64,000 nucleotides of DNA. Source: Bryobacter aggregatus MPL3. GTDB lineage: Bacteria; Acidobacteriota; Terriglobia; Bryobacterales; Bryobacteraceae. The translations under genes and the position numbers were made by a program. Below the pieces are notes generated by a model. That model worked only from the letters and a program-made list of their open reading frames with translations, did not search any database and was not told the origin of the DNA. The stretch lies in assembly GCF_000702445.1 (NCBI RefSeq), contig NZ_JNIF01000003.1, forward strand, positions 2,976,001 through 3,040,000, written 5' to 3'. The first letter of the stretch is position 1, and each line of letters opens with the position of its first letter. Shown here one piece after another: positions 45,360 through 62,794 of this stretch.

Positions 45360-46481
45360 ATGGAAGCGAAGCGAGGACGACCCAAGAAGCAGGAGTTGGT
45401 GGTAACCGAGCAGCAACGGGAAGAGTTGGAACGGTTGGTGCGGCAGCCAAGAAAGTCCCGAGCAACAGCGTTTCGGGCACGAATCATCCTGGAATGCGAC
45501 GGCGGATTGAGTAACGCCGCAGTTGCGGCGAAGCTGAGGACAACTGGGTTTACTGTTGGATTCTGGCGTAATCGTTTCATTGTGGGCGGGATCTCAACTT
45601 TGGGAGATGAGCCTCGGCCCGGGGCGCCACGAGAAATCGGCGACGACAAGATTGAGCAGGTCGTCCGGCTCACACTGGAGAAGGCCCCCAAGGGAGCAAC
45701 CCATTGGTCCAGCCGAATGCTGGCGACGAGAACAGGACTGAGTCAATCCACCATCAGCCGCATCTGGCGTGCCTTTGGTCTGAAGCCACATCGAAGCGAA
45801 ACCTTCCAGTTGTCGAACGATCCGTTGCTGGTTGACAAAGTGCGGGACATTATTGGGCTCTATCTGTCGCCCCCGCATCATGCGTTGGTGCTGTGCGTGG
45901 ATGAGAAAAGTCAGATCCAGGCGCTAAGCCGGAACCAACCCGTGTTGCCGCTACGAAGCGGTCAACTTGAGCGCCGCACGCACGACTATCAACGACATGG
46001 AGTGACCAGTCTGTTTGCGGCTCTGGATATCGCCACCGGCCGGGTATTGGGCAAATGCTATCGCCGTCATCGCTCTGTAGAGTTCCTCGATTTCTTGAAA
46101 AAAATCGATGCGGCCGCCCCTGCCGACCTGGATGTCCATCTGGTGCTGGATAACTACGGAACGCACAAGACCGCCAAGGTTCGACAGTGGCTCCAAAAGA
46201 GGCCCCGGTATCATCTGCACTTTACTCCCACACATGCCTCTTGGTTGAACCAAGTCGAACGCTGGTTTGCGTTGTTGACACAACGGCAAATCAAGCGTGG
46301 CTCTCATCGAAGCGTCTCGGAACTAGAGGACGCTATTCGGAAGTTCATTGCCGTGCACAACGAGCAACCCAAACCATTCCTCTGGACCAAATCTGCCTCT
46401 CAAATTCTTGAGTCCATCGCCCGCTTTGCTTCAACCACCCTTGCCGCCCATCAACCGAACACTTCTGCTAGAAATCAATGA
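45360..46481 (+). CDS. IS630-family transposase (DDE)
   Basis: This 373-residue transposase has an N-terminal helix-turn-helix region (residues 30-140; [10 protein letters not shown], then [10 protein letters not shown]) and a C-terminal DDE domain. The catalytic acids are Asp181 ([10 protein letters not shown]), Asp264 ([10 protein letters not shown]) and Glu300 ([10 protein letters not shown]). The frame is full length and undamaged. The stop codon TGA (46479-46481) lies partly in the right inverted repeat. Confidence 0.97.
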
Positions 46482-47437: not shown

Positions 47438-47920
47438 ATGAAAGCGATGTCGACGGGGTTTCAAAAACTGCTGCAAAAGAATCTGGGAGCCGCACCGCTC
47501 ACCCTCACTCTCAAGTCTGGAATCGAAATGCGAGGCACGGTCCAAAAGCTGGAAGAAGACCTGGTCACACTCGCCGTGCCAACAGGCAGCCAGGCCTGGG
47601 TCGATTTGCACGAGATTGCGGCAGTTCTGATCCATACTCCCCCGCTGCCCGCTCCGGTTAGCAACGCAAAAGTCTCCTATCGCTGGAAGAACAATCCGCC
47701 GGCCGATGCGGAACTTGCCACGGCGCAAGTGCTGCTGGGTTCCATTGTGGAGGCGCTGCAGGCCTTGTCTGCGGAAGACCAGATCCAGAGCATCCGCCTC
47801 TTCTCCGGTGAACCCGGCCGTTTCCGCATCGAAGGCAGCAACCTGGAAGCTGGCTTCACACACGAGGAGCCACCACTCCCGGCGCGCGAAATCGTCTCCC
47901 TACTGGCCGCGATTCTCTAG
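47438..47920 (+). CDS. Protein with an Sm/Hfq-like N-terminal barrel, function unknown
   Basis: The ATG at 47438 gives 160 residues without a signal. Residues 20-65 (L-T-L-T-L-K-S-G-I-E-M-R-G-T-V-Q-K-L-E-E-D-L-V-T-L) read like an Sm-fold strand-turn pattern; the rest (about 75-160) is helical and acidic. A role in RNA binding is only a guess. It is convergent with queG, overlapping by 21 bp at the 3' ends. Confidence 0.6.
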   Translation: MKAMSTGFQKLLQKNLGAAPLTLTLKSGIEMRGTVQKLEEDLVTLAVPTGSQAWVDLHEIAAVLIHTPPLPAPVSNAKVSYRWKNNPPADAELATAQVLLGSIVEALQALSAEDQIQSIRLFSGEPGRFRIEGSNLEAGFTHEEPPLPAREIVSLLAAIL

Positions 47921-48835
47921 CGCCACCCGCACATTCCGGTTGAAGCCCTCGCGCTTTGTCCTGGCGACAGGTGTCTTGCGAAATCGTTCCCGAAACTCTT
48001 CTTCTCCCATCTCGGCTAAGGGCGGACAGGCGTTACGCGCCTGGAAGGCCGGCTCTGCCGTCACCGGGGCGCGGCGGTTCCACGGGCAAACATCCTGGCA
48101 AATGTCGCAGCCAAACAGATGCTGGCCAAATGCGGCGCGCAACTCCGGAGGCGCTTCCGTTTTGGCTTCGATTGTCCAATAGCTGATGCACAGGCCGCTA
48201 TCGATCTTCCATCCCGTGCCCTCGGGGACAATGGCGGCTGTCGGGCAGGCTTCGATGCAGCGGCGGCAACTCCCGCAGCGGTCCGGTGGGGGCGTCCCAT
48301 AGTGGTCCACCTCCAGGCTCAGCAGTAACTCGCCGAGAAAGAACCAACTGCCGGAGCCCTGATGGATCAGACAGCTATTCTTGCCCACCCATCCGAGGCC
48401 TGCCTCGCGCGCATAGCTCCGTTCGAGTAGCGGTGCCGTATCCACCACCACCCGCGATTCAAAGGGCTCCCCAATCTGCTCGGCCAACTTGGCGGCCACC
48501 CGCTCCAGACCTTCGCGCAACACGTCATGATAGTCGCGCTGGCCCCAGGCATAGCGCGAGATCCAGCCTGTCCCGTCTGCAACGCGCTCTGGCCCTTCCG
48601 TGTTGTACAGCTTCCCGACGCAAAGCATTGTCTTGGCGCTTGGGAGCAGATGCCGCGGGTCGGCCCGGACTCCGGCACGATGGTCGGTCAGGTAAGTCAT
48701 GCCCGCCGCCATCCCATCCTCCACCCAACTCCGATACATCTGATAGTCGGCATGGGGCAGGGCAGGGGTAAGGCCGGCCAACTCAAAGCCCTCCTCATGC
48801 GCGGTATCGAGGAGGATTTGCGCAGCAACAGGCAC
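47900..48835 (-). CDS. queG: Epoxyqueuosine reductase QueG
   Basis: This 311-residue cobalamin- and iron-sulfur-dependent enzyme carries out the last step of queuosine synthesis in tRNA. Two iron-sulfur clusters are supported by C187-x2-C190-x2-C193-x3-C197 (C-G-S-C-R-R-C-I-E-A-C-P) and C216 with C243-x2-C246-x3-C250 (C-D-I-C-Q-D-V-C-P-W-N). The N-terminal half has the DUF1730 domain with V-V-V-D-T-A-P-L-L-E-R. The gene is divergent from the exported protein at 48853. The remaining queuosine genes are not in the window. Confidence 0.95.
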   Translation of the reverse strand: MPVAAQILLDTAHEEGFELAGLTPALPHADYQMYRSWVEDGMAAGMTYLTDHRAGVRADPRHLLPSAKTMLCVGKLYNTEGPERVADGTGWISRYAWGQRDYHDVLREGLERVAAKLAEQIGEPFESRVVVDTAPLLERSYAREAGLGWVGKNSCLIHQGSGSWFFLGELLLSLEVDHYGTPPPDRCGSCRRCIEACPTAAIVPEGTGWKIDSGLCISYWTIEAKTEAPPELRAAFGQHLFGCDICQDVCPWNRRAPVTAEPAFQARNACPPLAEMGEEEFRERFRKTPVARTKREGFNRNVRVALENRGQ

Positions 48836-49389: not shown

Positions 49390-49561
49390 CTTCGATTTTT
49401 CTTCGTATTCCCTCTTTGCAATTCAACTCTGCTCTTTGCATTCCGACCGCAAAATGGAGCCATTCGCTTGAGATCTACTTCCTCAAAAGCGAAGGAGCAT
49501 TAACCTATCACCATACGAGTGGGATCACCCACCAAATTTTTGCGACTCAGCACGGAGAACA

Positions 49562-51679
49562 ATGTCTAAAACTGTCAAGCTCGTCGAAAAGGCCGCCTCG
49601 ATCGCGGCAAACGCCACTTGGGCGGTGTTTGAAAAGTTGAATGCGATCAACCCGAACCCTTCCTTTACCCCGAAGTGGTCGGATAAGCCGCTCCTTAAGA
49701 GCTACCAGAAGACCAAGCCGCCACTCGGCTGGCCCCGCACCACAGATTCCCTCTGTCCGAAGTGCGTTCCCGACATCCGGAACAAGATCATCAACGGCGA
49801 TCTGCCGGTAGAGATTCTCAAGAACCAGAAGGTCGGCGAAATCAAGGCTCAGATCATCGAGCGCGACGGCAAGATTTTGATGGTGAAGGATTGCGCCACC
49901 CACGGTCACTTTGAAGACGTGATGGCCATCGATCCTGCCTTCTTCAAGCATCTCGAAGAAGTGTTCCCCGGCCGCGACATCCGCGCCCACAACGATAAGG
50001 ACCTGCACAACCACGGTTCTTCGACGATCACCCACGGCCGCGGCGCTGTGCTCACGATCGATTTGACCAATCGTTGCAACATGATGTGTGACCCCTGCTT
50101 CATGGACGCCAACCAGGTTGGCTTCGTTCATGAATTGTCCTGGGAAGACATCACCACCATGCTCGACAACGCGGTGAAGATCAAGCCCCGCCGTCAGATG
50201 TCGGTTCAGTTCTCCGGTGGCGAACCCACGATGTCGCCTTACTTCCTCGACGCTGTTCGCTACGCCCGCAAGGTGGGCTACAACTCCGTCCAGGCCGCCA
50301 CCAACGGCATCGAGTTTGCGAAGTCGGTCGATTTTGCCAAGCAGGCTGCTGAAGCCGGTTTGCGTTACGTCTACCTCCAGTTCGACGGCATCGGCAACGC
50401 TGCCAACTCGCACCGTGCCGTCGGCAACCTCTTCGACGTGAAGATGCGCGCCATTGAGAATTGCTGGTCCAACGGGATCGACATCGTTCCCGTGACGACC
50501 ATCGTCAACGGCATCAACAACGAGCAGGTCGGCCGCATCGTCGAGTTTGCTCTCGACAACCCGAAGAAGATCCCCTTCCTCAGCTTCCAGCCCGTGTCCT
50601 TCACTGGCCGCGACGAAGAAGTCACCGAAGACCGCCGCGCCGCACAGCGCTACACTCTGTCTCACTTGGCCCACGACGTCAAGAACCAGACCGGTATCGG
50701 CGTGCCCGACCGTGACTGGTTCCCCATCTCCGTCATGAGCACCTTTGCTGACTTCGCCGATCTGGTCCACGGACCGGGCGCCGAGTGGGGCCAGGTCTCC
50801 TGCGGTTGCCACCCCAACTGCGGCATCGGTATGGCCGTCATGGTCGACAAGGAAACCAAGGAAGCCGTTCCGGTTACCTCCTTCCTCAACGCCACCCAGT
50901 TCATGAAGGACGTTGCCAAGCTGAACGATGCTGCCCGCAGCAAGTTCTGGTCGCTCTTTGGGGTCTCCATCGCGCTGATCCGCAACTACAACCCCTACGC
51001 TGCTCCCACCCACTTCCGCATCATGGACCTTCTCAAGAAGTTTGACAAGTCCATGGGCGCCACCGGCAAGAACTACGGCAAGGTCACCGGCGAACGTACG
51101 ATGGCTGACATCGAAAAGCGCCGTGGCGACCGCTGGAACTTCCTCTTCATCGCTGGCATGTGGTTCCAGGATCTGTTCAACTACGACTTCCGCCGTACCG
51201 AACAGTGCATCATCCCCTACGCGACGCAGGAAGGCGAAATCTCCTTCTGCGCCTATAACACTGGTGTCGGTTGGCGCAATATCGTCGAGAAGATGCACAT
51301 GACCGCCACGCTCACCAAGTGGTACGAAGAGCATGGCCGCCACAAGATCTACGCCGGCAACAAGAACGTGGACATGAGCTCGATCGAGCACTCGCTGCTT
51401 CTCAACCAGGAAGCTGTCGAAGCCGGCAAGCAGACCGACCTTGACCTCCAGGGCATCGCCAAGAACGCTCGCGAAGAAAAACTCCGCGCCCGTGCCCAGA
51501 TGATCAAGGAACAAGAGCACCACAAGGAAATGGAAAAGCTCTATCGCAAGGAAGTCCTGAAGGAGCAGACCGTCGAAGGCTTCGTGCCGCTCGGCGACAT
51601 CAAGCCCGCAGGCCTCCATGGCATCGCTCCAGCCCCCAAGGCTCCCCAACAGGAGACCACGGGCGCGCTCGGCGACTAA
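49562..51679 (+). CDS. Large radical SAM protein of the MJ0619/Tes (tetraether synthase) family
   Basis: This 705-residue protein has a canonical radical SAM site C172-x3-C176-x2-C179 (C-N-M-M-C-D-P-C) and GGEP at 219-222. Further conserved blocks, V-Q-F-S-G-G-E-P-T, V-Y-L-Q-F-D-G-I and S-F-Q-P-V-S-F-T-G-R, match, from memory, archaeal MJ0619/Tes. Extra cysteines, probably cluster ligands, are C65-x2-C68 with C111 (N-terminal S-L-C-P-K-C) and C414, C416, C420 (C-G-C-H-P-N-C). The usual archaeal GCP-DCGLC motif between the N-terminus and the SAM site is absent. A charged coiled coil (about 625-680) ends the protein. Tes joins lipid tails to make membrane-spanning tetraethers. GGAG lies 5 bp before the ATG, and a strong terminator follows. 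Confidence 0.88.
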   Translation: MSKTVKLVEKAASIAANATWAVFEKLNAINPNPSFTPKWSDKPLLKSYQKTKPPLGWPRTTDSLCPKCVPDIRNKIINGDLPVEILKNQKVGEIKAQIIERDGKILMVKDCATHGHFEDVMAIDPAFFKHLEEVFPGRDIRAHNDKDLHNHGSSTITHGRGAVLTIDLTNRCNMMCDPCFMDANQVGFVHELSWEDITTMLDNAVKIKPRRQMSVQFSGGEPTMSPYFLDAVRYARKVGYNSVQAATNGIEFAKSVDFAKQAAEAGLRYVYLQFDGIGNAANSHRAVGNLFDVKMRAIENCWSNGIDIVPVTTIVNGINNEQVGRIVEFALDNPKKIPFLSFQPVSFTGRDEEVTEDRRAAQRYTLSHLAHDVKNQTGIGVPDRDWFPISVMSTFADFADLVHGPGAEWGQVSCGCHPNCGIGMAVMVDKETKEAVPVTSFLNATQFMKDVAKLNDAARSKFWSLFGVSIALIRNYNPYAAPTHFRIMDLLKKFDKSMGATGKNYGKVTGERTMADIEKRRGDRWNFLFIAGMWFQDLFNYDFRRTEQCIIPYATQEGEISFCAYNTGVGWRNIVEKMHMTATLTKWYEEHGRHKIYAGNKNVDMSSIEHSLLLNQEAVEAGKQTDLDLQGIAKNAREEKLRARAQMIKEQEHHKEMEKLYRKEVLKEQTVEGFVPLGDIKPAGLHGIAPAPKAPQQETTGALGD

Positions 51680-51723
51680 GTTTTCAACGTAACGAAGAGT
51701 CGCAAATTTCGTTCGCTTCACTC

Positions 51724-53275: not shown

Positions 53276-54685
53276 TTGAAAATTGGTTTTGTTAGTTTGG
53301 GTTGCCCCAAGAACCTGGTTGATTCTGAGGTCATGATGGGGCAACTGGCAGCGCACGGGCACGAGCTCACCAGCGCGCCTGAGGACGCCGAGGTCATCGT
53401 CGTCAATACCTGCAGCTTCATCAATCCTGCCAAGCAGGAGAGCGTTGACACCATCATCGAGATGGGGAAGTTCAAAGAGACGGGTAAGGCGAAACGTCTG
53501 GTGGTTGCCGGCTGTCTGGTGGAGCGCTTCCGTGGCGAGATTGAGGACAATCTGCCTGAGGTCGATGCCTTGATCGGCACCAACGAGATCGAGAAGATCA
53601 TCGAGGCTTGCGAAGGCGAGAAGTTCACGCCCAGTTCGACGCCCTATCTCTATCACGATCTCTCCCCGCGCGTTCTCACCACCGGCCGCTACTCGGCCTA
53701 CATCAAGATTGCTGAAGGCTGCGACCACCCCTGCAGCTTCTGCGTCATCCCTCAGTTTCGTGGCGCCTTCCGCAGCCGCCGCTTTGAATCGATCACCGCG
53801 GAGGCCACTCGCCTTTTCGAATCAGGCGTTCGCGAGATTAATCTCATCGGCCAGGACACCACCAGCTACGGCGAAGATCTCGGCATCAAGGACGGGCTGG
53901 CGCATCTGCTCGGCAGCCTGGCGCAGATCGAAACCCCTTTTGAGAAGTGGGTTCGTTTCCTCTATTGCTACCCGAACCGCGTCACCCAGAAGCTTCTCGA
54001 CACCATCGCTGAGCACGCCTCGCTGGTGAAGTATATCGATATGCCTCTACAACATGCGAGCCGTAACGTCCTCAAGCGCATGAAGCGTGGCTCGAATGGC
54101 GACTTCTTTCTCAAGCTGATTGAGCAGGTGCGTGCCACCATCCCTGGTGTGGCGATTCGCACCTCGATGATCGTCGGCTTCCCGGGCGAAACCGATGCCG
54201 ACTTTGAAGAGCTGATGCAGTTTGCCGAAGCCGCCAAGCTCGACCGTCTGGGCGTCTTCAAGTATTCCGATGAAGAGACCTCCGGCTCCTTCGCGCTCGA
54301 CCAAAAGGTTGATGGCCGCACCATCCACAACCGCCAGCGCCGGCTGATGGCGGCGCAACGCAAGATCTCCAAAAAGATCAACAAGTCGTTGATTGGACGG
54401 GAGTTCCCGATTTTGATCGAAGGTCCCTCGGAGGAGACGGATCTGCTTTGGCAGGGACGCTTGCCTTCCCAGGCGCCTGAGATTGACGGCTACTGTCTCA
54501 TCAATGACGTCAGCGATGGCGACCTTGCCAAGGGCCAGATCCGCCGCATCCGCATCACCGAGGCGCATGATTACGATCTCATCGGCGAAGTCTTCGGCGC
54601 TCCGGAGCCGATCGTCTCCCGCTTGAGCGACAACCCCTTTCCGATTCTGAACGCTGCTCCCAAACGGCAGCACCAACACATCTAA
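53276..54685 (+). CDS. rimO: Ribosomal protein S12 methylthiotransferase RimO
   Basis: The TTG at 53276 (GGGGAA upstream) gives 469 residues. N-terminal UPF0004 domain has Cys10 (S-L-G-C-P-K-N), Cys46 and Cys80 for the auxiliary iron-sulfur cluster. The radical SAM site is C149-x3-C153-x2-C156 (C-D-H-P-C-S-F-C). C-terminal TRAM domain (about 385-450) ends with D-Y-D-L-I-G-E-V. The enzyme methylthiolates Asp89 of S12. The last about 20 residues are a variable tail. It lies 5 bp upstream of yacG. Confidence 0.97.
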   Translation: MKIGFVSLGCPKNLVDSEVMMGQLAAHGHELTSAPEDAEVIVVNTCSFINPAKQESVDTIIEMGKFKETGKAKRLVVAGCLVERFRGEIEDNLPEVDALIGTNEIEKIIEACEGEKFTPSSTPYLYHDLSPRVLTTGRYSAYIKIAEGCDHPCSFCVIPQFRGAFRSRRFESITAEATRLFESGVREINLIGQDTTSYGEDLGIKDGLAHLLGSLAQIETPFEKWVRFLYCYPNRVTQKLLDTIAEHASLVKYIDMPLQHASRNVLKRMKRGSNGDFFLKLIEQVRATIPGVAIRTSMIVGFPGETDADFEELMQFAEAAKLDRLGVFKYSDEETSGSFALDQKVDGRTIHNRQRRLMAAQRKISKKINKSLIGREFPILIEGPSEETDLLWQGRLPSQAPEIDGYCLINDVSDGDLAKGQIRRIRITEAHDYDLIGEVFGAPEPIVSRLSDNPFPILNAAPKRQHQHI

Positions 54686-60059: not shown

Positions 60060-61421
60060 TCACCGGGCGGCGTTTGCACGTTTGGGCAGCACTCTTTGCA
60101 ACTCGCGGCGCAAGAGCACCACGAGTGTCCCGGCAATCACACCCAGATAAAGAAACCGAATCGCACTCACCCCAAACAGCATGCCGCTGTTCTCGGGCTT
60201 CATTTGGAACTTTGGCGCTCCGCGCAGCGCATCGAAATCGAGCGTCTGCTTTGTTGACAGGTAAGGCAGAAGATATGTTTTCCACTGCTGAAAGAATACG
60301 ATCGCGGCTTCCCGGAATTCCGTATAGCGCGATAACCCGGATCCCGCCAGATCGTCCACCGCGAATTGGGTCACGGTGTAGGGAGAGAGCCAGGATCCGA
60401 TCTGGCTCAGCTGCTCCATCCGGCGCACACTCGACTCAAAGGCCTCGACCTTGGGCCGGAGTTGTTCTTCCACCATCAGGCTCTTCAGGGCGATGAGTCT
60501 GGTGTTGCCAAGTGGTTGCGACCAGTCGATTGCGGGCGCTCCCTGGGATTGTAGAAATTGATCGACTACTGCCTGCTCTGGCAACTGGATCGTTTTGCTC
60601 AAATTCCTACGATCGATCGAAATCTCCAGCCGGCTCTGCGGGCGGGCTATGGCCGATCCAATGCTCTGTAGCAGGAAGGGCACTCCGATGACGCTGATCA
60701 GAAAAATACCTGTGTAGCGGATGGCTGCTCCGGCAAAGGAAGAGCCTCGCAGCAGGAGCCAGGCAAAGAGCAAGAGCCATCCCAACAAGTAGACGCTCAC
60801 GATGGCGACCCAAAAAGAAAGGCGTCCCAACCTCTCGTTGGACCCGATCTGCATCCCGCTGGCGTACAAGCTGGCCAAGGTGCTGAGGATGATCACGCCG
60901 GAGAATACGCCGAGAGGCATCAAAATCCTCTCGATGCAGAAGTCGAACATGGAAACCTTGCCACTCAGCAGCTTCTCAATCGCGCCGCTGGCGAGGCACT
61001 GCCGATAGAGAAAGAAACAGATCGGAAGAATTGCAATCGGCAGGACCAGGAGGAAGACAAAGCTGAGGTCCACCCGTCCGTAGCGCCGCCGCGCCGGATG
61101 TTCGATCACATCGACATTGGTCAAGGGGCGCGTCGCCAAAAGCCGGATCAGATGCATGGACGGTGCCATTCCCACCAAGCCAGAACTCAGTTGCAGCAGC
61201 GCAGGCGGAGGAAGCGTGACCTCCACATAGACGGAGCCAGGGTCGGCGACCTGTGGTTCCTTCATGGAATACCGCTGCAATGTCGTCTCGGTCTGGCCAA
61301 TGCCTGCGCTCACCGAGGAGGCAAAGACAATCAAAGCGACCAGCGCCACGAGCAACAAGCCTTGCAGCACGTAGGGCGTTCTCCCCAGGCGGCTACTTCC
61401 AAAAGCAATTGGCGAAGTCAT
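60060..61421 (-). CDS. DUF3526-type ABC transporter permease, second of a pair
   Basis: The ATG at 61421 gives 453 residues with about six membrane segments and a large loop after the first one. The layout (an N-terminal helix, an extracytoplasmic domain, then a bundle of helices near 110-260, and a second extracytoplasmic part near 275-430 ending in one helix) is that of DUF3526/ABC-2-like permeases. It overlaps the first permease gene by 4 bp (ATGA). No ATPase gene is near, so its motor must be encoded elsewhere or be missing. The substrate is unknown. Confidence 0.7.
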   Translation of the reverse strand: MTSPIAFGSSRLGRTPYVLQGLLLVALVALIVFASSVSAGIGQTETTLQRYSMKEPQVADPGSVYVEVTLPPPALLQLSSGLVGMAPSMHLIRLLATRPLTNVDVIEHPARRRYGRVDLSFVFLLVLPIAILPICFFLYRQCLASGAIEKLLSGKVSMFDFCIERILMPLGVFSGVIILSTLASLYASGMQIGSNERLGRLSFWVAIVSVYLLGWLLLFAWLLLRGSSFAGAAIRYTGIFLISVIGVPFLLQSIGSAIARPQSRLEISIDRRNLSKTIQLPEQAVVDQFLQSQGAPAIDWSQPLGNTRLIALKSLMVEEQLRPKVEAFESSVRRMEQLSQIGSWLSPYTVTQFAVDDLAGSGLSRYTEFREAAIVFFQQWKTYLLPYLSTKQTLDFDALRGAPKFQMKPENSGMLFGVSAIRFLYLGVIAGTLVVLLRRELQRVLPKRANAAR

Positions 61422-62794
61422 ACGGGGATCTCGATCTCCATTGTTTTCGATCGGTTTTCTTTTTGCTGCTTGGATAGGAAAAAGCCCGCTGCGGCCCAAA
61501 GCAGCAGGAACGCAGACGGGAGCAGGCTGGAGTTCAGGGCATGGGCTGGGCTTGGTAAGGACGGATGGACAAAAGGAAACTGCCGCCAGTATTCTGGGCC
61601 CCGAATGATCTTTTTCCCTTCCGGTCCACTGGACACCACGATGTCCTCATAAACTTTCCGCACCATGTTGTCCCAGTACAAATCGGCCTGGTTCAGTTGT
61701 TCCCGCTCACTGGCAAAGTCCGTTGCTGCCAGTGCGCTTGACGCGATCTGAATTCCAACCATCGGAGCGGCAAACGAAGTGAGCTGCTCAAATCGTTCCT
61801 GGCTGCGATATAGCTCATTCAATTCGCCAAGACGGCGAACGAAAACCTCGCGTTGGTGCCGCTCCTCTTTCTTCAGCAGGATTGCCGACAGATTGACGGG
61901 CAACTGGTCAATGCTCTTCACCTGATATTCGACCAACGCTTCTGCTATGAAACGGCGCTCGCGGTCCTTCCTCGTCTCGACGCCGTTGTAGCCGTTGGCT
62001 CGTTCAAATTCAATCTTCCGGGCCATCGCATCGATCGTCGGAAGCGGATACAGCGCTCCTGCCAGATTCGTGGTGGTCGGACGAGCCAGGGCTATATTGA
62101 ATAACCAAAAACTAGCCAACACCAGCGTGGCCCGCGAAGTGTCCGGAATGTAACGATAGGCCAGCCAGCAGATACTGGCCGCCGCCAGCGCATAGAGCAG
62201 GTAGCACCCAAGCAGCAATAGCAGCCGGGTGGCTCCATTCAGCCCTAGCATCTTCCAGCTCAACATTGCGCTGAGGAGACAGGCAATCGCGAGTGCCGGT
62301 GCACAGCGCTCGAACAAAGCAATGAGCATTGCCGTCCAGCTCTCCGTGCTCCCGGCCGCAATGGCTTCCCGGCGTTGCCAGCAGAGCAGCAAGGCCAGCA
62401 TCGGAATGGCGATCTGCGCAAGGATGGCGGCGGTTAGACCGATTTGCCGGCCTGCCGGCGCATAGTCGTACCCCACCTGATCCTGGATGCGGGCGAGTCT
62501 TCCCAGTTGCAACCACAGGGAGCTGCCCAACCAAGGACCATCTCCTGCATCAAAGCTGCTGAGCGGCGACGCCACGGCGGGCGCGTACACGGCTCCCATT
62601 AAGGTGTCGAGCGGAAATGCGGGCGGGTGGTCGGCCCAGAGACGCTGTGCTTCCCGGCCTGCGCGATCCGCCTCAGAGTGCAACTCCAGTCCCTGCCACC
62701 ATTGCATTCCTACCAGCAAGATTGCCAAGGTTGGAAGGGCATATCGGACTCTTGAGAGAAAGCGTTGTAGCGATTGCTCGTTGCGATCCGTCAT
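61418..62794 (-). CDS. DUF3526-type ABC transporter permease, first of a pair
   Basis: This 458-residue protein has an N-terminal helix (Y-A-L-P-T-L-A-I-L-L-V), an extracytoplasmic part around 40-125, a helical bundle (about 125-250) and a second outer part ending in a last helix (F-L-L-L-W-A-A-A-G-F-F-L). It matches its downstream partner in layout, and the two are coupled. ABC systems of this kind often export small molecules or build envelope structures. The 5' end is divergent from the PBP gene by 69 bp. Confidence 0.7.
   Translation of the reverse strand: MTDRNEQSLQRFLSRVRYALPTLAILLVGMQWWQGLELHSEADRAGREAQRLWADHPPAFPLDTLMGAVYAPAVASPLSSFDAGDGPWLGSSLWLQLGRLARIQDQVGYDYAPAGRQIGLTAAILAQIAIPMLALLLCWQRREAIAAGSTESWTAMLIALFERCAPALAIACLLSAMLSWKMLGLNGATRLLLLLGCYLLYALAAASICWLAYRYIPDTSRATLVLASFWLFNIALARPTTTNLAGALYPLPTIDAMARKIEFERANGYNGVETRKDRERRFIAEALVEYQVKSIDQLPVNLSAILLKKEERHQREVFVRRLGELNELYRSQERFEQLTSFAAPMVGIQIASSALAATDFASEREQLNQADLYWDNMVRKVYEDIVVSSGPEGKKIIRGPEYWRQFPFVHPSLPSPAHALNSSLLPSAFLLLWAAAGFFLSKQQKENRSKTMEIEIPV

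Follow-up and report, generated by a model that had tools for sequence, protein, structure and literature searches.

The window analysed here is a stretch of 64,000 nucleotides from the acidobacterium Bryobacter aggregatus MPL3 (assembly GCF_000702445.1, contig NZ_JNIF01000003.1, positions 2,976,001 to 3,040,000 of the forward strand); all feature positions are counted from its first letter. On the plus strand, an open reading frame at 49562..51679 starts with ATG and encodes a protein of 705 amino acids plus stop, referred to below as the window protein. The open frame, the NCBIfam model for Tes, the structure 7tol in the Protein Data Bank (PDB) and a phylogenetic tree mark it as a Tes-like radical S-adenosylmethionine (SAM) protein, related to the archaeal tetraether enzyme MJ0619. 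The gene is real, under selection and the only one of its kind in the host genome, and it encodes a divergent Tes-like enzyme.

Reading frame and metal sites of the Tes-like gene

An earlier, sequence-only reading of the locus described a radical SAM frame of 705 residues with several motifs, and the translation contains all of them: C172-x3-C176-x2-C179, GGEP, VYLQFDGI, SFQPVSFTGR, CPKC (65-68) and CGCHPNC (414-420). Conservation was followed in the A2 alignment, which holds 77 of the 81 available rows (omitted: L097 and L127, whose titles seemed misnamed, L105 with a stop, and the truncated L098). As C65, C68, C111, H114, C172, C176, C179, C414, C416, C420, C549 and C563 are invariant across these 77 rows, the motifs are not due to chance. 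Compared to the nearest relative (L056), the differences at the three codon positions are 40/23/208 and the nonsynonymous and synonymous rates (dN/dS) are 0.045/0.65, from which it follows that the plus-strand frame is under selection. A 724-codon open frame on the minus strand (49547..51721) covers the whole gene in antisense, and recurring overlapping antisense frames are also present in its relatives; this frame looks like a codon-mirror shadow of the gene. In the host genome (5.75 Mb, 98% complete, four contigs) the gene is the single Tes-like copy, and four further matches to the Tes model are generic radical SAM proteins with at most 67.5 bits.

For the comparison with MJ0619, 16 residues named in PMC9433317 were located in the letters of 7tol, where 16/16 fit at an offset of 20. 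The residue alignment comprises 69 rows, 36 of which belong to the clade of the window protein: 23 chosen rows of type A (window protein included), 7 of type B and 6 of type M. Group B counts L105, which is really a type A gene with an internal stop and the only gapped row at the [Fe4S4]C site described below.

The rubredoxin-like or zinc-ribbon site (C65 C68 C111 H114, 49754..49903) is recognized by PF23545 (E-value 1.9e-12), a Pfam family that carries its name from the old pterin methylase annotation of MJ0619. C111 and H114 align with C33 and H36 of MJ0619 and are kept across the clade, and the pattern C-x2-C...C-x2-H is found in 35/35 clade rows besides the window protein. The cysteines of the radical SAM cluster, C172-x3-C176-x2-C179 (50075..50098; Radical_SAM PF04055, 2.4e-16), are retained throughout the clade as well. 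In the SFQPVSFTGR loop, which closes the active site (residues 341-350, 50582..50611; PMC9433317), Q343, S346 and R350 correspond to Q268, S271 and R275 of MJ0619 and are kept in the clade. The S271 position is Ser in the clade and Ala in 16/23 rows of canonical acidobacterial Tes (the canonical rows).

The region from C414 to C563 (50801..51250) aligns with the radical-storage site [Fe4S4]C, in a part where the structural model is weak. C420 stands opposite the cysteine of HCG in MJ0619, C549 opposite C455 and C563 opposite the cysteine of FCTYN, and these three residues would be the ligands of [Fe4S4]C. Met533 takes the place of the labile Met439 of MJ0619, and Tyr553 that of Tyr459. Together, C549, C563, Met and Tyr are kept in 23/23 type A rows, 6/6 type M rows, 6/7 type B rows (the broken one being L105) and 23/23 canonical rows. 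R210 of MJ0619 is aligned opposite A286; the adjoining, invariant R285 is likely its true partner.

The clade appears to have lost one iron-sulfur cluster of Tes, [Fe4S4]N. By alignment and pattern count, the corresponding region (residues 145-157, 49994..50032) here reads HNHGS, with H151 and S154 at the positions of C77 and C80 of Tes. The ligands C73, C77 and C80 are present in 0/36 clade rows versus 23/23 canonical rows; the fourth ligand, histidine H83, was taken from the alignment. A check for the pattern CxxxCxxCxxH gave 0/35 clade rows versus 23/23 canonical rows. The shorter pattern CxxxCxxC occurs in this stretch in only one of 79 relatives, namely L098, in which the start is truncated and the radical SAM motif has shifted to this place, and [Fe4S4]N cysteines are found in 5/8 TrsS-like rows. 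Four histidines, H149, H151, H190 and H284, do not vary within the clade. The absence of the GCP-DCGLC cluster motif and the distinct branch, both claimed from the sequence alone, are thus borne out. The carbon-sulfur intermediate of MJ0619 arises on [Fe4S4]C, so the lost cluster is not the part known as catalytic; the authors call the roles of the other metallocofactors unclear (PMC9433317).

About 56 extra residues precede the first Cys of the window protein (C65 versus C9 in MJ0619). They contain an amphipathic helix (residues 3-27, 49568..49642; AlphaFold, with a predicted local distance difference test score, pLDDT, of 89-95 by block) that precedes the portion in common with MJ0619. Its hydrophobic moment is equalled by 28/2000 shuffles, and in 77/77 rows the moment of this helix is reached by fewer than 5% of 500 shuffles. 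The helix is a candidate membrane contact. The acidobacterial tail contains a charged C-terminal helix (residues 636-664, 51467..51553; AlphaFold), in which R637, E638, E639, R644 and M657 are invariant in the A2 alignment. The earlier reading had pointed to the C-terminal extension and overlooked the N-terminal one. What it called a coiled-coil tail is just this one charged helix, whose prediction has modest confidence (block pLDDT of 51-76).

Placement within the Tes family

The best NCBIfam match of the window protein is Tes/GDGT-MAS (NF045702; GDGT: glycerol dialkyl glycerol tetraether), with an E-value of 1e-97 over model positions 2-483 of 486. TrsS (NF045646) comes second with 215 bits, under its cut-off of 490, and its best stretch covers residues 93-382 only; models for NirJ, AhbC and MoaA match as well. 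In a search of PDB sequences, MJ0619 (7tol) is the sole strong match, at 9.2e-67 for the window protein alone and at 2.7e-89 for a profile of 18 acidobacterial sequences. The AlphaFold model, built from the window protein and 76 relatives, has a predicted template modelling (TM) score of 0.77 and a mean pLDDT of 71.4. When this model is compared with known folds by Foldseek, 7tom (1.6e-25) and 7tol (6.1e-25) rank first and second with a TM-score by target of 0.71, while the third, MoaA, reaches only 2.8e-6.

Two trees were calculated: a quick one of 68 rows, from which the MoaA-type outgroup L052 was omitted, and a careful one of 52 rows. For the latter, 16 more rows were dropped, among them L105 with its stop and L162 with its long branch, and otherwise mainly kin of retained rows; it includes one archaeal Tes row, and its outgroups are TrsS-like only. 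In the careful tree the window clade forms a single group (support 100/100). It is joined by canonical Tes from two families of the phylum, f4 and f51 (100/99), and the Tes-type rows as a whole are split from the TrsS-like rows (100/99). Because of a long stem and the single archaeal row, the exact position of the clade inside Tes is unsure. The kinship with MJ0619/Tes that had been claimed from the sequence holds by profile, PDB match, fold and tree alike, and the tree proposed as its check places the protein inside Tes, not with the TrsS-like radical SAM proteins. A grouping with pterin methyltransferases does not discriminate, since MJ0619 itself first bore that annotation, which Lloyd et al. 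were unable to corroborate (PMC9433317).

Distribution, lipids and competing explanations

Among the best 80 matches listed, the nearest one to bear a name comes from an uncultured 'Acidobacteria bacterium' with 92% identity, followed by records of Bryobacterales, Acidipila, Edaphobacter and Granulicella with 75-78%. A record titled as a Bordetella parapertussis metagenome-assembled genome (MAG; L097) holds a 76% identical acidobacterial-type gene and is probably a misnamed bin. In the phylum, 174/297 genomes (host included) match the window protein at E <= 1e-20; of these, 143 reach E <= 1e-190, which corresponds to the window clade irrespective of type, and the other 31 match less strongly. 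The Tes model was searched in 33 chosen genomes, i.e. 30 of the 31 with weaker matches and three others, and Tes exceeds the cut-off in 24 of them. The window type is carried by 30/30 other sampled genomes of the same class and by 2/2 of the same family. The host class is inferred to be that of Edaphobacter, because the same-class row L002 adjoins Edaphobacter modestus in the quick tree. Window-clade and canonical genes occur together in few genomes (e.g. G037, G113), types A and B in some (e.g. G025, G141), and window-clade genes are also present in G096, G123 and G165.

This distribution can be set beside published lipid data. E. modestus DSM 18101 contains 30.4% iso-diabolic acid and E. aggregans DSM 19364 26.4% (PMC11354219). 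In the genome of E. modestus DSM 18101 a single Tes-like gene reaches E <= 1e-20; it is of the window type (L104, 77% identity), and the other five named strains that were searched also have one Tes-like gene each. Abundant iso-diabolic acid is described for 17 acidobacterial cultures of subdivisions (SD) 1 and 3 (PMC13274423, summarising), and Chloracidobacterium species, which have two chromosomes, contain it too (PMC12816986). In E. modestus and the 30/30 same-class genomes, the presence of the gene agrees with what is published on producers of iso-diabolic acid.

From homology, fold, distribution and the kept radical SAM, rubredoxin-like and [Fe4S4]C residues, the window protein is probably a divergent acidobacterial Tes-like radical SAM enzyme that couples lipid tails and makes iso-diabolic acid. 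By analogy with MJ0619, two phospholipids with iso-C15 tails would bind with these tails in hydrophobic pockets. The cluster held by C172, C176 and C179 would cleave SAM and abstract a hydrogen from the end of one tail, after which the [Fe4S4]C cluster, which C420, C549, C563 and Met533 would hold, may store the carbon radical on one of its sulfurs. Another molecule of SAM would yield the radical on the second tail, and both tail ends could then couple. This would give iso-diabolic acid in ester-bound membrane-spanning lipids, and in ether-bound ones with the help of other enzymes. The substrate, the reaction and the function of the N-terminal helix are all inferred here.

Several observations weigh against this assignment. 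With 327.8 bits the window protein stays under the curated NF045702 cut-off of 450, which in a control was passed by 3/14 genomes, presumably the three archaea that possess Tes. The lost [Fe4S4]N ligands and the long stem of the clade (1.73 changes per column in the careful tree) leave room for a changed function. The model falls below a pLDDT of 50 at residues 148-162, 177-184 and 540-592, stretches that reach into parts of the radical SAM and [Fe4S4]C sites, and among the scanned neighbours no lipid gene adjoins the gene. Solibacter (SD3) has Tes homologues and branched GDGTs (brGDGTs) and no detectable iso-diabolic acid (PMC10087280). As both the cut-off and the [Fe4S4]N ligands fail, the window protein is not filed as a Tes equivalog; it most likely works like Tes nonetheless.

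A further objection is that other radical SAM enzymes could account for iso-diabolic acid. In that case the product would come from the bacterial membrane-spanning lipid synthase Mss or from a host protein termed P0002, and the window protein would act on the tails in another way, for instance by bridging within a molecule, by ring closure or by methylation. Mss is reported as a coupling enzyme in other bacteria (PMC13274423, PMC11868695), its activity there being described as confirmed (PMC11868695), and one survey of acidobacterial MAGs found it in 11/97 versus 17/97 for Tes homologues (PMC11868695). The host genome has 24 radical SAM matches including the window gene, several of them without assignment. 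Of the other 23, three were scanned with Pfam only and 20 with NCBIfam, where 13/20 pass a curated cut-off (MoaA, MiaB, HpnJ, RimO, MqnC, MtaB, two LipA, HpnH, MqnE, a sulfatase maturase and two RlmN) and HemW stays slightly under its own. P0002 (G000:C4:23019-24590; L189/L194; 524 amino acids) matches Radical_SAM only; its N-terminus looks B12-binding, and it is possibly a lipid or hopanoid methylase or a ring former. It is also found in 5/6 named strains, with two copies in E. modestus. However, at E <= 1e-80 P0002 is patchy (57/297 genomes of the phylum and 15/30 of the same class) compared to the 30/30 of the window type, which weakens its case as sole maker of iso-diabolic acid. Overall, this division of labor is unlikely.

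Tail coupling could also be confined to the synthesis of ether lipids (brGDGTs) at low oxygen and play no part in the abundant ester-bound iso-diabolic acid. Condensation of diethers by Tes homologues was proposed for Solibacter by Halamka et al. 2022 (PMC10087280), and E. aggregans combines a Tes homologue with brGDGTs at low oxygen (Zeng et al. 2022, PMC8941075). Yet E. modestus reaches its high iso-diabolic acid content with one Tes-like gene, and in PMC11354219 the Edaphobacter strains yielded no detectable glycerol ether of iso-diabolic acid, although the paper refers to an earlier study that described such ethers. The occurrence in 30/30 same-class genomes also suits an everyday lipid better, and the restriction to ether lipids is rather improbable.

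An unrelated radical SAM function with only a shared fold (TrsS-like, MoaA/NirJ-like or pterin methylase), to which the lower-scoring models and the name of the zinc ribbon could point, is very improbable: the matches to TrsS, NirJ, AhbC and MoaA have short best stretches, the TrsS-like proteins fall outside Tes, the residues equivalent to Met439 and Tyr459 are kept, and the pterin role of MJ0619 itself is uncorroborated (PMC9433317). On profile scores, residues, tree and that record, the TrsS and pterin methylase readings were rejected.

That Tes homologues join lipid tails in Acidobacteria is not a new idea. Zeng et al. 2022 reported one homologue in E. aggregans (32% identity), for which a role in brGDGT synthesis was suggested, and further ones in Koribacter (42%) and Solibacter (40%) (PMC8941075); Halamka et al. 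2022 proposed them as the condensing enzyme in Solibacter (PMC10087280). Judged by these identity values, the E. aggregans homologue would fit the window type, and those of Koribacter and Solibacter the canonical type. According to a 2025 paper, bacterial Tes activity is not confirmed (PMC11868695). In the open literature (with subscription papers and preprints outside the search), no report was found of an experimental test of acidobacterial Tes or of the missing [Fe4S4]N. The earlier interpretation is thus supported in part: it stands as to the Tes kinship, the distinct branch and the distribution, and tail-to-tail coupling is so far a published proposal. What is added here is a distinct subfamily without [Fe4S4]N and a clean prediction from gene to lipid.

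Branched tetraethers from soil bacteria serve widely as proxies of past temperature and pH, yet the tail-coupling enzyme of Acidobacteriota is still unproven. Splitting the window type from canonical Tes gives two genes with different predictions, where the earlier papers cited here counted the acidobacterial Tes homologues together. If the window type does couple tails, [Fe4S4]N would be dispensable for coupling, its role having been left open in PMC9433317. A tentative extension of the preferred reading can also be imagined, although it is rather doubtful as a whole. The window clade might make iso-diabolic acid in aerobic Acidobacteriota generally, acting on bacterial ester phospholipids with one cluster fewer. 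The exposed [Fe4S4]N cluster might have been dropped as an adaptation to oxygen, perhaps replaced by a site of H149 and H151 with H190 and H284, while canonical three-cluster Tes would serve ether lipids or anaerobes. COX1 (heme-copper oxidase; PF00115, E <= 1e-20) is found in 30/32 window-clade genomes (A, B or M) versus 12/21 genomes with canonical Tes only (Fisher p 0.004), or by family in 29/31 versus 4/11 (Fisher p 0.0004). These genomes were hand-picked, kinship is uncorrected, and the window-clade genomes were not screened individually for canonical Tes. COX1 and canonical Tes are both present in families f4, f17, f37 and f51, and f7 appears in both COX1 sets. The link between oxygen and the missing cluster is suggestive, i.e. 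a lead only.

Genomic neighbourhood and comparison with known systems

The neighbours of the gene are HemD, a DDE transposase, a protein with a 3-keto-disaccharide hydrolase domain, QueG, an open frame without assignment and a TIM-barrel protein, and further RimO, a TIG/beta-propeller-like protein, CinA and a trypsin/PDZ protease. In the absence of a lipid neighbour, operon context was dropped as a functional clue. The commonest non-overlapping neighbour family is QueG, an epoxyqueuosine reductase (47900-48835, minus strand), with at least 19/90 type A loci, a lower bound because the flanks of many loci are short. Two genes downstream lies a second radical SAM gene, which encodes the ribosomal S12 methylthiotransferase RimO (53276-54685, plus strand; 478.6 bits versus a cut-off of 357) and is not lipid-related. 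The DDE-type transposase (45360-46481, plus strand) lies about 3 kb upstream, between HemD and the 3-keto-disaccharide hydrolase-domain gene. Two adjacent DUF3526 proteins (60060-62794, minus strand) are presumably ABC-type membrane permeases.

Archaeal Tes/GDGT-MAS (MJ0619; 7TOL, 7TOM; NF045702) is the best fold match and shares with the window protein the domain order, the rubredoxin-like site (CPxC and the equivalents of C33 and H36), the CX3CX2C motif, the Gln/Ser/Arg loop and, at the [Fe4S4]C site, the cysteines, Met439 and Tyr459. The window protein differs in its missing [Fe4S4]N ligands, its score below the curated cut-off, the extra N-terminal residues and a tail of about 100 residues; N108 of MJ0619 is replaced by Asp182, and the likely substrates are bacterial lipids. 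Canonical acidobacterial Tes (e.g. L137, L136, L152, L156) has the phylum and the [Fe4S4]C residues in common with it, the members from f4 and f51 being nearest. Unlike the window protein, these enzymes mostly exceed the Tes cut-off and retain the [Fe4S4]N motif; their open frames measure 511-638 amino acids (a partial one of 464 was excluded).

The paralogues B and M (e.g. L034, L040) are 48-56% identical to the window protein. They too have no [Fe4S4]N ligands and the same [Fe4S4]C residues, but their C-terminal tails are shorter or different. In two M-type genes (L041 6025-7932 and L042 5565-7463, both on the plus strand) the tail is Cys-rich (GCGCH), unlike the charged tail of the window protein. 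The TrsS-like proteins (L162-L169; nearest model NF045646) also combine a zinc-ribbon start with a radical SAM core; the 4/8 rows scanned with NCBIfam all match TrsS best, below its cut-off. In contrast to the window clade, they have Met439 in 1/8 and Tyr459 in 0/8 rows and stand outside the Tes group. Mss, compared here by description only, from papers that cite Sahonero-Canavesi 2022, is credited with the chemistry that is proposed for the window protein on iso-C15 lipids. According to PMC13274423, models of Mss superpose on Tes, and PMC11868695 handles it as a gene separate from Tes.

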